Source of the DNA: Baaleninema simplex PCC 7105
Lineage (GTDB): Bacteria > Cyanobacteriota > Cyanobacteriia > Cyanobacteriales > Geitlerinemataceae
NCBI RefSeq assembly: GCF_000332355.1
Contig: NZ_KB235958.1
Coordinates: 2,615,065-2,654,396, forward strand
Reading direction: 5' to 3'
Length of the DNA stretch: 39,332 nucleotides
The notes under the pieces were generated by a model. The model was not told the origin of the DNA. It did not search any database and saw only the letters and a program-made list of their open reading frames with translations. Shown in pieces: positions 19,147-23,375 of this stretch. How positions within the stretch are numbered: position 1 is the stretch's first letter; the number at the start of each line of letters is the position of its first letter. A program made the translations under genes and the position numbers.

Positions 19147-19371
19147 TCAAACGGTACTTTGAAACAAGGTTTCCAAGTACACCCTGGCTGCACGGCGGTA
19201 GTTTTGAGACGATTCGGGGGTACTGCTATCTCCATTTTGCAGGAGAAATAGAGACAACGCTGCGGAGAAGACCCGATCTTGATCCCAGTCGGGATGGCTA
19301 TCTAGGTAACTTTTGAGAGATTGGTGTAAGTCTTCGGGAATTTCTGCCAGTATGCTGACGCTTGTATTCAT
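19147..19371 (-). CDS. DUF2811 family protein
   Basis: 74 residues: MNTSVSILAEIPEDLHQSL then KSYLDSHPDWDQDRVFSAAL. This is the characteristic cyanobacterial DUF2811 sequence of full family length. The fold suggests a ribbon-helix-helix-like small protein, but its function is unknown. A tnpB-type element is inserted with its left-end hairpin about 15-20 bp upstream of the ATG at 19371. The gene has therefore probably lost its native promoter or now depends on one inside the element. Confidence 0.85.
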   Translation of the reverse strand: MNTSVSILAEIPEDLHQSLKSYLDSHPDWDQDRVFSAALSLFLLQNGDSSTPESSQNYRRAARVYLETLFQSTV

Positions 19372-19389
19372 CTTTCTTCGGCGCCGAAC

Positions 19390-19421
19390 CCCCCGCTATA
19401 GCCGTTAGGCTTAGCGGCGGG
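19390..19421 (+). repeat. Left-end hairpin of the tnpB element
   Basis: An outer stem CCCCCGCTA/TAGCGGCGGG with one bulged C encloses an inner AGCC-GTTA-GGCT stem. It matches the right-end hairpin at 20637-20668. Confidence 0.75.
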
Positions 19422-19484
19422 AGGAAGCGCCGCCTCCAATGTTAGGTTTACACGTTCACTCCCTGGATGAGTTAGAATGGGAGC

Positions 19485-20591
19485 ATGACTCAAGCAATAA
19501 CGGTTAAATGCAGGCTGATAGTCCCTCCAGAGTTGACTGAAAAGGTCGATGAGACTCTGGAGGGCTTTGCTGAGGCTTGCAACCAGATCTTGCAAACAGC
19601 TAAAGAACACAACGTCTGGAACACGACGAAGCTGCATCACCTGACGTATAAGCCAGTTCGAGAAGCCACCGAACTCAAAGCCAATCACGTTTGTCAGGCA
19701 ATTCGCCGCGTTGTCAATCAACGAAAAGCCACCCAACAAATCCACAAGTTTCGCCCCACCAGCGTCGGTCTCGACGTTCGGACGTTCAGGTACATCGAAT
19801 CCAAACAACAGGTCGGTGTGACTCTGAAGTCGGGGCGAGTTAACTTCGATCTCAAGATTGGTGGCTATCAAATCGCACTGCTGCGGGGACAAAGTCCCAC
19901 CAGTGCAACGCTGAAGAAAACTCGGCAAGGGGATTACTACATCAACATCGTTGTTGAAGTCCCCACCCAACCGAAGGGGAGAACCCCCAAGGTCTTGGGA
20001 GTTGACCGGGGTTTGCGAGACATCGCGACTACCTCCACCGGGAAATCCTGGAATGGAGAACAACTGAGGGCAACTCGCGAAAAGTACGTTCGTGTACGTG
20101 CCTCGATTCAAGCCAAACGCACCAAGTCGGCTAAACGCTTGCTTAGAAGGCTCTCTGGGCGTGAATCGAGGTTTCAAAGTTGGGTCAACCACAACATCAG
20201 TCAGCAACTCGTTCGAGAAGCCAAAGCCACCAATGCTGTAATTGCCTTCGAGGATCTCACAGGGATTCGATTGAGTGTCAAGCTCAGGAAGAAAACTCGA
20301 ACCGAAATTCACCGATGGGCGTTCTACCAACTTCAATTGTTTACCGAGTATAAGGCAAACATTGCCGGGGTAGAAGTCGTCACCGTCGATCCTCGCTACA
20401 CTTCCCAAACTTGTTCTCGATGCCATCACGTTCCCCCCGAACGGGGTAAGTCCTATCGCCACGGTAAGCGGTTTAAGTGTGGTTTTTGTGGCTTCGAGCA
20501 TGATGCTGATGTAAACGGGGCATTAAATATCGCTCAACTGGGGGCTGTCGTAACTCAGCCTGAAATCTCGACCTATGCTTGCGTTCCTTGA
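19485..20591 (+). CDS. tnpB: TnpB RNA-guided endonuclease (IS200/IS605 accessory protein)
   Basis: 368 residues, full length for a compact TnpB. The split RuvC catalytic residues are Asp174 (GVDRGLRD), Glu256 (AFEDLTG) and Asp342 (HDADVNGALN). The zinc ribbon is Cys310/Cys313 (CSRCH) and Cys332/Cys335 (CGFCG). The N-terminal helix-turn-helix/wedge region spans 1-165. No stop or frameshift interrupts it, so it looks functional. TnpB proteins use an RNA made from the element's right end to cut DNA next to a target-adjacent motif; here that RNA would run through the 3' end of the gene to about 20680. GGGAG just before the ATG at 19485 supports the start. Confidence 0.93.
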   Translation: MTQAITVKCRLIVPPELTEKVDETLEGFAEACNQILQTAKEHNVWNTTKLHHLTYKPVREATELKANHVCQAIRRVVNQRKATQQIHKFRPTSVGLDVRTFRYIESKQQVGVTLKSGRVNFDLKIGGYQIALLRGQSPTSATLKKTRQGDYYINIVVEVPTQPKGRTPKVLGVDRGLRDIATTSTGKSWNGEQLRATREKYVRVRASIQAKRTKSAKRLLRRLSGRESRFQSWVNHNISQQLVREAKATNAVIAFEDLTGIRLSVKLRKKTRTEIHRWAFYQLQLFTEYKANIAGVEVVTVDPRYTSQTCSRCHHVPPERGKSYRHGKRFKCGFCGFEHDADVNGALNIAQLGAVVTQPEISTYACVP

Positions 20592-20680
20592 GGGGCAACT
20601 CAGTTTGTTCCCGGCAGGTACGGGTTAGGGATAAAGCCCCCGCTATACCTGTAAGGGTTAGCGGCGGGAATAGTTACAGC
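20592..20680 (+). ncRNA. Predicted TnpB guide-RNA (omega RNA) scaffold region
   Basis: The 3' end of the element contains nested hairpins at 20637-20668 (CCCCCGCTA/TAGCGGCGGG, inner ACC/GGT). By analogy with studied TnpB systems, the guide-RNA scaffold overlaps the end of tnpB and finishes at the right end, with the guide taken from flanking DNA after about 20670-20680. Boundaries are inferred. Confidence 0.45.
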
Positions 20681-21140
20681 TGTCTCCTAAGCTGGGGGAA
20701 TTACAGCGAGCCGCGAATTGCGATCGCGCCGGTGAGGAATCGCTGTAAAAGGGTCTGGATTTCTGACCTGTCGCATTATTTTGATCTGAGAAGGGGTGGG
20801 GTTGTCAATGTTGCAAAATATTAAAAACCTCCGAACACGACCGTTGCCCTCACGAGAGAATGCGGGTTTGAGGAGTATTTTTGTTACATTACTTCATCAA
20901 AAGAGGTTGGATCTGAGAGTAGACGAACGGCGATCGAGAAATCCCCAACAATTCCACCGAGTCCCGTTCTCTCGTCATACCCTGTGGAAAACTTTCTCAA
21001 ACCTGTGGAAAACTCGAGAAGAACTTGTGGAAAGTCTGTGGAATCGATGGGGAAAATCTCCAGCAATGATAAGAATTGCAAAGAGCGGCAAATCTTAAAA
21101 ATTGCCGTAATATGACAGATGCAGCCAACACTGAGCGTCT
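20681..21140. other. Intergenic region with TGTGGAAAA array
   Basis: 460 bases upstream of the cotransporter gene. An open frame at 20796-21098 runs through the DnaA-box-like array and looks non-coding. The array is listed separately. An AT-rich stretch at 20815-20830 (AAATATTAAAAA) and TAATAT at 21107-21112 are the only promoter- or unwinding-like spots. Confidence 0.5.
20983..21056 (-). promoter_or_regulatory. Phased cluster of DnaA-box-like motifs
   Basis: Two perfect TGTGGAAAA motifs (20983-20991, 21004-21012), which read TTTTCCACA on the minus strand, are followed by TGTGGAAAG (21026-21034), TGTGGAATC (21037-21045) and TGGGGAAAA (21048-21056). TTTTCCACA is the reported cyanobacterial DnaA box. 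Start-to-start distances are 21, 22, 11 and 11 bp, so all sites face the same side of the helix. It could be a replication origin element, a DnaA titration/regulatory site or a DnaA-controlled promoter for the cotransporter gene. No dnaA or dnaN gene is in the window. Confidence 0.55.
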
Positions 21141-23375
21141 ATGGTTCGCCTTCCCTGGCGTCGTCCGCCACAACCCGATCCCGATCCTTCGGAGTCTCCT
21201 AGCGGTTTAGGAACTTTCGGCGGCGTCTTTACCCCCTCGATTCTGACGATTCTTGGGGTAATTATGTATTTGCGGTTCGGTTGGGTCGTGGCCAACGTCG
21301 GTTGGGGAGGAAGTCTGGCGATCGTCACCCTTTCGACGGCGATCACGTTTCTAACCGGCTTGTCTATTTCTGCGATCGCCACCGATCGCGTGGTGCGTGT
21401 CGGCGGTGCCTACTACATGATCAGTCGCTCCCTCGGCATCGAAACCGGCGGTGCGGTGGGCATTCCCCTCTACTTCGCCCAAGCCCTCTCCGTCGCTCTC
21501 TACACCTTGGGTTTCGCCGAAAGCCTCATTAACACCTTTCCCGTCCTCAGCAACGTTCAAACCGTCGTCGCCCTCATCACCACCATCGCTGTGGCGGCCT
21601 TAGCCATCCAATCGGCCAACCTCGCCATCCGCGCTCAATACTTCATCATGGCGGCGATCGTCCTCTCGCTGCTGTCTTTCGCCTTCGGTCATCCCGTCGC
21701 CGAAAGCGACATCGGCGTGTGGAACGTTTCTGGACGCGTTGGCGAACCGTTCTGGGCAGTGTTTGCCGTATTTTTCCCCGCCGTCACGGGGATCATGTCC
21801 GGCGTGAATATGTCTGGCGACTTGCGCGATCCCTCGAAATCGATTCCCATCGGTACGCTTTCGGCCATTGGCGTTGGCTATCTCATCTACATGATTTTGC
21901 CGGTTTTCCTCTCCACCCGCGCCGACTTTACCGCCCTGACTGAAAATCCCCTCGTCATGCGCGATATCGCTCTATGGGGCGATGCTATCTTATTGGGCGT
22001 TTGGGGCGCGACGCTCTCGAGTGCGTTGGGCAGTATTCTCGGGGCGCCTCGGGTTCTGCAAGCTCTGGCGCGAGACGGCGTTTTACCGCGATCGCTCCGC
22101 TGGCTCGGACAAGGCCACGGCCCGGACGACGAACCGCGCTTGGGAACTTTCGTGACCTTGGGCGTCGCCGTGGCCGCCGTCTGCGTGGGAGATCTCAACC
22201 TCATCGCTCCCGTCTTGACCATGTTTTTCCTCTCGACGTACATGGTCTTGAACGTATCGGCGGCGATCGAAGGATTTCTGCAAAGTCCCTCCTTCCGTCC
22301 GACGTTTCGGGTGCATTGGTTTCTCTCCCTTATCGGGGCTTTGGGTTGCTTGTCCGTGATGGTTCTCATCAACGCCGCCGCCGCTGTCGTCGCGGCGATT
22401 CTGGTGGCGGGGATTTACATTTGGCTCGAACGGCGGGAACTTCAGTCGGCCTGGGGAGACGTGCGACGGGGATTGTGGATCGAGCTGGCGCGTTTGGCGA
22501 TTCTCAACCTCGGCGATACGCCCGATACGAAAAACTGGCGTCCGAATATTTTGGTTCTCTCGGGTGCGCCGATGCGCCGCTGGCCGCTGATCGAACTGGC
22601 GGCGGCCTTTACCCACAACCGAGGTCTGATTACAGTTGCCAGTATTTTACCGAGCGGTTCGCGAGATCTGGCTCAGCAAGCTTCTCTCGAAAGCAAGATT
22701 CGGGAGTATGTGGAGAAACGGGGCGTGCAAGCTCTGGTCCGCATCGTGACCGCCCCCGATCCGTTTGTCGGTGCCGAACGGCTGATCGAAGCCTACGGTC
22801 TCGGTCCGCTGGTTCCCAATACGGTGTTGCTCGGAGATAGCGAGCAGGAAGCGTTACGGCAGGATTATTGTAAGTCGATCGCCACGTTGCACCGATCGCG
22901 TCGCAGTGTCGTTATTTTTCGCGAAAATCCCGAACTGGGCTTTCGCAACCGCCGCCGCATCGATGTGTGGTGGGGAGGGTTGCAATCGAACGGCGGGTTG
23001 ATGCTGTTGTTGGCCTATCTCCTCCGCACGAGCGATCGCTGGCGCGGCGCGACGATTTATTTGAAATTGGTAGTACCTAACGAAACTGCCGCTCAAGCCG
23101 CCCGCGCGAACCTCGATAATTTGGCGCAACAACTCCGAATCGGGGCGGTATCGCAGGTGTTGGTCTCTGACGGACGACCGTTTCCTGAAATTTTGCGGGA
23201 GTCGTCTCGGGCGGCGGATTTGGTCTGTTTGGGGATGGCGACCCCCCGCGACGGTGAAGATTTTAGTGAATATTACGGTCGGTTACAGGCTATGGCCTCG
23301 GATCTTCCTACGACTCTCTTTGTTTTGGCGGCGTCCGATTTTGCCTTTGAAGAAGTCTTGCAGGGTAAAGATTAG
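21141..23375 (+). CDS. Cation-chloride cotransporter (SLC12/NKCC-like), APC superfamily
   Basis: 744 residues. The opening TFGGVFTPSILTILGVIMYL then RFGWVVANVG is the TM1 signature of Na-K-Cl and K-Cl cotransporters. TM6 has FFPAVTGIMSGVNMSGDLRD then PSKSIPIGTL, the ion-binding region of the same family. About 12 membrane helices fill residues 20-435. The C-terminal ~300 residues form a cytosolic SLC12-type regulatory domain (WRPNILVLSGAP..., later LVCLGMATPRDGEDFSEYYG). Electroneutral chloride-coupled cation transport is inferred from family; the ion specificity is unknown. The start at 21141 is an ATG. The DnaA-box-like array ends 85 bp upstream. Confidence 0.92.
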   Translation: MVRLPWRRPPQPDPDPSESPSGLGTFGGVFTPSILTILGVIMYLRFGWVVANVGWGGSLAIVTLSTAITFLTGLSISAIATDRVVRVGGAYYMISRSLGIETGGAVGIPLYFAQALSVALYTLGFAESLINTFPVLSNVQTVVALITTIAVAALAIQSANLAIRAQYFIMAAIVLSLLSFAFGHPVAESDIGVWNVSGRVGEPFWAVFAVFFPAVTGIMSGVNMSGDLRDPSKSIPIGTLSAIGVGYLIYMILPVFLSTRADFTALTENPLVMRDIALWGDAILLGVWGATLSSALGSILGAPRVLQALARDGVLPRSLRWLGQGHGPDDEPRLGTFVTLGVAVAAVCVGDLNLIAPVLTMFFLSTYMVLNVSAAIEGFLQSPSFRPTFRVHWFLSLIGALGCLSVMVLINAAAAVVAAILVAGIYIWLERRELQSAWGDVRRGLWIELARLAILNLGDTPDTKNWRPNILVLSGAPMRRWPLIELAAAFTHNRGLITVASILPSGSRDLAQQASLESKIREYVEKRGVQALVRIVTAPDPFVGAERLIEAYGLGPLVPNTVLLGDSEQEALRQDYCKSIATLHRSRRSVVIFRENPELGFRNRRRIDVWWGGLQSNGGLMLLLAYLLRTSDRWRGATIYLKLVVPNETAAQAARANLDNLAQQLRIGAVSQVLVSDGRPFPEILRESSRAADLVCLGMATPRDGEDFSEYYGRLQAMASDLPTTLFVLAASDFAFEEVLQGKD

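Follow-up and report, generated by a model that had tools for sequence, protein, structure and literature searches.

The cluster of DnaA boxes at 20983 to 21056 of the window (the whole 39,332-nucleotide stretch of the Baaleninema simplex PCC 7105 genome analysed here) is probably a DnaA-responsive regulatory element of a divergent DUF2811 gene and not the main replication origin. Judging from sequence comparisons, we put the probability of this reading at roughly 0.6. The array itself is a genuine, conserved cluster, and it belongs to an element of about 110 bp that lies divergently upstream of DUF2811 in many cyanobacteria, with the window holding one copy. The array, the DUF2811 gene and dnaA also tend to go missing together. 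The conserved array, the gene and their joint loss point to a putative DnaA-linked control circuit that was previously undescribed.

All boxes of the array share one orientation and read on the minus strand. Boxes 1 (20983..20991) and 2 (21004..21012) are perfect copies of TTTTCCACA (plus-strand letters TGTGGAAAA), and box 3 (21026..21034) is CTTTCCACA (plus-strand letters TGTGGAAAG), each identified from sequence and conservation. Box 4 (21037..21045) is GATTCCACA, with plus-strand letters TGTGGAATC, where many relatives have TGGGGAAT on the plus strand. The fifth motif (21048..21056) is TTTTCCCCA (plus-strand letters TGGGGAAAA), a variant box whose TGGGG is kept in nine close loci; the conservation claim covers those nine, later loci having been picked on this feature.

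A preliminary description of this DNA had reported five boxes, two of them perfect, at spacings of 21, 22, 11 and 11 bp. Direct reading of the window gives the same positions, the same spacings and the same two perfect boxes, and boxes 1 to 4 stand, but the fifth is a conserved variant and not a canonical box. Such order had also been judged improbable by chance, and our counts agree. TGTGGAA occurs four times on one strand within 61 bp of the window, while 300 dinucleotide-preserving shuffles of the window reached a maximum of two (in one shuffle), and the array is the sole site in the 6.15-Mb genome (G000, contig 4) with three same-strand TGTGGAA at gaps of 2–30 bp. The 11-bp steps with weakening boxes resemble the low-affinity DnaA arrays of E. 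coli oriC.

Across genomes, the element keeps its place beside one gene. A three-box pattern is present in 165 of the 243 genomes of the order, a count that includes tandem repeats of another kind. Twenty three-box places were read, and 15 of these were of the window type (L072-L079, L082, L084, L086, L088-L091), every one with a divergent DUF2811 gene adjoining the array. Four were clusters of the dnaA/dnaN type, a known kind of origin (L080, L081, L083, L085), and one was of a third kind (L087). Large genomes of family f14 (G093, G164, G188, G215) carry many tandem TGTGGAATGGGCATCTTGCC-like repeats, which mimic DnaA boxes in pattern searches.

A scan of genome contigs from 84,980 species with the pattern of boxes 3–5 gave 84 stretches, 80 of which were taken as loci (L112-L191), and DUF2811 was divergently upstream in 70 of them. 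Arthrospira PCC 9108 (L140) carries array and gene alike, and S. elongatus gave a DUF2811 match. The ten loci without it comprise four that are truncated near the locus edge (L125, L126, L153, L156), three labelled non-cyanobacterial (L154, L162, L188) and three other matches (L168, L172, L177). The last six were dropped to leave 74 loci, and in 64 of these, all chosen on boxes 3–5, boxes 1 and 2 are also at the expected position (within 2 bp, with at most one mismatch). We built a model, R1, from an alignment of 55 of these 64 loci plus the window, omitting nine that were mostly near-duplicates or cut loci.

R1 matches 129 of 386 genomes of the phylum. Its place relative to DUF2811 was counted in genomes with both positions listed, those with one of the two unlisted being left out. 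For best matches with E values up to 3.6e-9, every one of the 84 genomes has the match in the divergent position upstream of DUF2811, at a median of 499 bp between first coordinates. Three of the five weaker best matches are also at DUF2811 (G270, G070, G185); G360 has its best match away from DUF2811 and its second match there, and G495 has none listed there. Relative to the promoter of a single gene, the boxes hold a conserved place, with G360, G495 and family f41 as the exceptions. The small genomes of f41 retain dnaA along with two to five DUF2811 matches each, but R1 matches just five of these genomes, all weakly, so DUF2811 does not need the array everywhere. Phylum members outside the class mostly have dnaA, with a single DUF2811 match among them (G307, E 9.7e-4). 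Because of these members and f41, we assign the pairing of array, DUF2811 and dnaA to part of the class.

Within the element, the spacing between the array, an HLR1-like (RpaB) site and a TTGACA promoter is nearly constant in most cases, as seen in a sample of 60 loci with a readable DUF2811 start. The predicted DUF2811 promoter of the window (20778..20808, minus strand) consists of TTGACA, a 19-bp spacer and CAAAAT, the -10 being the best fit, taken without a control. TTGTCAA (TTGACA on the minus strand) occurs in 54 of the 60 relatives; 30 of those 54 have it between -222 and -225 relative to box 3, and its distance to the DUF2811 ATG varies from 54 to 388 bp. The best -10-like hexamer is at 18–19 bp in 50 of the 54, again picked by fit and without a control. 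The window's candidate HLR1-like site, GTTACATTACTTCATCAA (20883..20900, plus strand), is degenerate. With up to two mismatches (the window copy has three, counted by eye), the HLR1 consensus (PMC11633204, in excerpt) is found anywhere in 41 of 60 relatives vs 3 of 300 shuffles and 6 of 60 reversed sequences, and at -166 to -128 from box 3 in 39 of the 60. Common offsets are about -131, -142, -154 and -164 for the HLR1-like site and -214, -224, -233 to -236 and -245 for the promoter. These commonest listed values appear to shift by near-whole helical turns, which is suggestive only, because related loci may share one change.

Conserved sequence also borders the boxes. The nine close loci, from genera g1, g3 and g6, all have GAAATCCCCAA on one side of the array (20938..20948 in the window, plus strand) and AATGATAAGAATTGCAA on the other (21065..21081, plus strand). 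More widely, 28 of 60 loci contain AATCCCCA at some point of the region, and 48 of 60 carry AAGAATT at box 3 + 45 or 46. The AAGAATTGC part of the 21065–21081 motif persists even in G024 and G123, which lack dnaA, and in loci from Moorena and Symploca (L146, L160) the motif is nearly palindromic, with the sequence AAGAATTCTTAC.

Loss of dnaA has occurred in some cyanobacteria (PMC7198777, in excerpt), and the loss of DUF2811 is correlated with it. Among the 243 genomes of the order, 189 have both genes, 36 have neither, nine have DUF2811 without dnaA and nine have dnaA without DUF2811 (Fisher 4e-26, phylogeny ignored). At a completeness of at least 90% (n = 217), the corresponding numbers are 176, 29, 6 and 6. 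A draw from the whole phylum, which overlaps with the 243 genomes, contained 105 order genomes at least 90% complete: 86 with both genes, 13 with neither, six with DUF2811 only and none with dnaA only. R1 matches in that draw follow dnaA as well, with 86 of 86 order genomes that have dnaA vs 5 of 19 that do not, bearing in mind that a match in a genome with dnaA need not be the DUF2811 copy and that second matches are partly at dnaA. The five matches without dnaA have E values of 1.4e-10 to 3.2e-4, and the weakest noted with dnaA are about 1e-7 to 6e-7, so the two ranges overlap.

Genera g57, g21 and g76 each contain members with both genes and members with neither, and further losses of both are in families f13, f31, f7 and f23 and genus g81. 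Several genomes without either gene are large (G099 at 6.8 Mb, G115 at 6.1 Mb and G133 at 5.7 Mb), which argues against mere genome reduction. Genomes at least 90% complete with dnaA and no DUF2811 match are G030 (whose dnaA match is weak), G109, G132, G200, G219 and G230, with G109 and G230 belonging to one genus.

The boxes themselves are erased or decayed in seven of the nine order genomes that have a DUF2811 match and no dnaA. Three of these (G024, G123, G162) have zero boxes, with TTGTCAATG kept and a degenerate block at the HLR1 place. G039 has one box left, and G195 and G229 keep box 1, the others being lost or mutated; all five are present in G173, which belongs to the same genus and has dnaA. 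On the array strand of G185 TGTGGA is nowhere intact, and the DUF2811 gene of this genome is a pseudogene with two in-frame stops. If DnaA was the user of the boxes, their disappearance beside a retained promoter is as expected. Boxes are kept in the other two, G034 (95% complete) and G206 (88%), where dnaA may be absent from the assembly only. A tenth such genome, G473 from the phylum draw, gave no R1 match. Among genomes with dnaA, G091 has two intact boxes, and degenerate arrays occur in genus g4 (G003, G006) and in part in G091. The preliminary description had called the motifs helically phased DnaA boxes; that identification gains from the conservation and from box loss in most genomes without dnaA, while the cooperative binding that it suggested is something we infer. 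The small dnaA-less genomes of genus g89 (2.8–3.1 Mb; G185 L259, G195 L258, G229 L249) present successive stages of element decay.

We infer a mechanism that takes in binding by DnaA and RpaB, the direction of regulation and the role of DUF2811. A DnaA oligomer would assemble on one helix face, over two or three strong boxes (TTTTCCACA) and the two weaker ones next in line, which are 11 bp apart, so that the filling of the boxes would reflect how much DnaA there is or its ATP state. In concert with RpaB at the HLR1-like site, which is closer to the gene by about 100 bp, this oligomer would set transcription from the TTGACA promoter, some 180 bp away from box 1. DUF2811 may act in turn in DnaA biology (e.g., as a regulator of DnaA or of initiation). 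One feature counts against this reading: the array sits about 180–250 bp beyond the -35 region, which is far for a simple activator.

If the array is a DnaA-responsive element of DUF2811, then DUF2811 is a candidate DnaA partner, and in several lineages it has tended to disappear along with dnaA. More tentatively, DUF2811 could be a cyanobacterial regulator of DnaA or of initiation under joint control by DnaA (through the five boxes) and the light/redox regulator RpaB (through HLR1), although we regard this as the less likely case. If true, replication initiation would be tied to photosynthesis through a feedback circuit, and a lineage that abandons DnaA would discard this circuit as a whole.

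Chance, a dnaN-type origin and a transporter promoter all fit poorly as explanations of the array. The preliminary description had offered an origin element, a titration site or a regulated promoter, and we favour the last, as a promoter element of DUF2811 and not of the SLC12-type (K-Cl cotransporter-like) permease gene at 21141..23375 (plus strand), which adjoins the array in part of the family only. That the array controls this transporter is extremely improbable. The SLC12-type gene was found in 21 of 39 genomes searched. The array does stop 85 bp before the SLC12 start, and conservation, which had been named as a check on the array, is seen ahead of the SLC12 orthologue, where all nine genomes of genera g1, g3 and g6 have the same layout. 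However, an intact array is absent from all other SLC12 loci in the DNA examined, and elsewhere the array has different neighbours on the SLC12 side. We therefore dropped an SLC12 promoter as a general function, since in that DNA no SLC12 locus outside g1, g3 and g6 has an intact array. At the loci of genus g4, of the window's family (G003 L013, G006 L028), dnaA is present in the genome, DUF2811 lies beside, and the array is reduced to one intact box plus degenerate ones. A chance cluster, or a conserved site for a protein other than DnaA, is very improbable too. The box sequence is short, and boxes are kept in some genomes without dnaA and lost in some with it, but the shuffles, the conservation and the box loss in seven of nine dnaA-less genomes all count against this reading. 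Titration is a more serious alternative. The datA and DARS loci of E. coli are non-origin DnaA clusters with a phased accessory motif, IHF/Fis sites and a part in DnaA nucleotide switching. The element could be a titration or nucleotide-switching locus like these, with DUF2811 as a helper or bystander: it is likewise a non-origin cluster with a phased accessory motif, compact, conserved and away from dnaN, it is correlated with dnaA, and its fixed flanking motif AAGAATTGCAA could bind a nucleoid protein. However, such a locus would require neither a close association with a single gene and promoter (84 of 84 strong matches) nor the co-loss of that gene, so we consider it quite unlikely.

The other alternative, also unlikely, is that replication starts at the element, as the only origin or a secondary one, with DUF2811 as an origin-proximal gene that possibly encodes an origin-binding protein. 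Five boxes at 11-bp steps would suit an origin, as would the two AT-rich conserved stretches that flank them (29% and 30% GC in 30-bp bins, 60 loci). Runs of at least three DnaA-trio-like triplets are also commoner in the flanks (36 of 120) than in mononucleotide shuffles (57 of 600), which are a weak control. Furthermore, the window genome yielded no box cluster besides the array: dnaN (L032) has no box in the 1.5 kb to either side, and dnaA (L004) has only two single TGTGGA nearby. Against this, G153, G177 and G199, from other families, contain both the element and a dnaA/dnaN-type cluster, 0.6–1.5 Mb apart, the boxes have a single orientation, near-fixed promoter distances are not expected of an origin, and in S. 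elongatus the origin determined by experiment lies close to dnaN (PMC7198777, in excerpt). The absence of dnaA and dnaN beside the array, as originally described, is borne out: in the window genome dnaN is 87 kb away and dnaA 1.33 Mb away on the same contig, and in three relatives dnaN is about 1.7–2.0 Mb from the array. Given the distant dnaN and the coexisting dnaA/dnaN-type cluster, a main-origin role is not favoured. GC skew in 20 stretches of 20 kb from a complete relative (G007) is irregular, with alternating signs; it is +0.064 at 2.40 Mb, -0.065 at 2.49 Mb and -0.052 at 2.515 Mb, near the array (2.512 Mb), and the sign alternates elsewhere too. Same-family G001 (L039) keeps a box cluster beside dnaN and the window genome is without one, so the dnaN-type cluster varies within the family.

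Our reading of the array as a DnaA-responsive DUF2811 element can be set beside systems already described. Cyanobacterial oriC lies beside dnaN in S. elongatus PCC 7942, Anabaena PCC 7120 and Cyanothece ATCC 51142 (PMC4674748 and PMC7198777, both in excerpt); it shares clustered TTTTCCACA-type boxes with the element, which differs in having no dnaN or dnaA beside it, one box orientation and a tie to the DUF2811 promoter, and in occurring alongside a dnaA/dnaN-type cluster in the three genomes named above. DnaA-box regions that control transcription are known in B. subtilis and Caulobacter (PMC7198777, in excerpt). As here, those boxes are upstream of a gene and away from oriC, but DUF2811, the five-box 21/22/11/11 layout, the HLR1-like site and the spread over many cyanobacterial families set the present element apart. 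With RpaB/HLR1 promoters (PMC11633204, in excerpt) it has in common tandem TTACA repeats upstream of a promoter, to which it adds a DnaA array, the HLR1-like copy of the window being degenerate.

A DnaA-box regulatory cluster is thus a known kind of element, while its layout, its link to DUF2811 and its co-loss with dnaA appear new within the open-licence literature. Full-text searches of that literature (subscription papers were outside the scope) found no paper on DUF2811 and none joining HLR1, RpaB and DnaA. The function of DnaA remains unclear in cyanobacteria with dispensable dnaA (PMC7198777, in excerpt), and DnaA binding to oriC depends on photosynthesis, with as-yet-unknown factors regulating DnaA activity (PMC6478999, in excerpt). 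The element is a concrete, conserved candidate DnaA target, and it may shed light on the role of DnaA in cyanobacteria that can do without it.

The window's DUF2811 gene (PF10929), with which the array is conserved, is at 19147..19371 (minus strand) and encodes 74 aa with a profile match of E 4.4e-29. The DUF2811 protein begins MNATVSILAEIPEDLHESL in array-type loci. A ribbon-helix-helix fold was considered on hints in the sequence pattern; profile searches gave no relative and no ribbon-helix-helix match, and the AlphaFold2 model is poor (pLDDT 57.9), so no fold is claimed.

Between the DUF2811 start and its promoter, the window has a TnpB gene (OrfB_IS605 / Cas12f1-like TNB; 19485..20591, plus strand), and homology between the window and its relatives restarts at about 20767, past the insertion. 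The insertion moved the DUF2811 gene 1.6 kb from the array and may uncouple it from its promoter in this strain. With DUF2811 displaced in this way, the gene seen next to the array was the SLC12 transporter, and the preliminary description missed DUF2811. The IS200/605-like element with TnpB spans 19375–20766, in the predicted DUF2811 leader, and has similar GC-rich hairpin-like sequence near both ends (at about 19390 and 20637).
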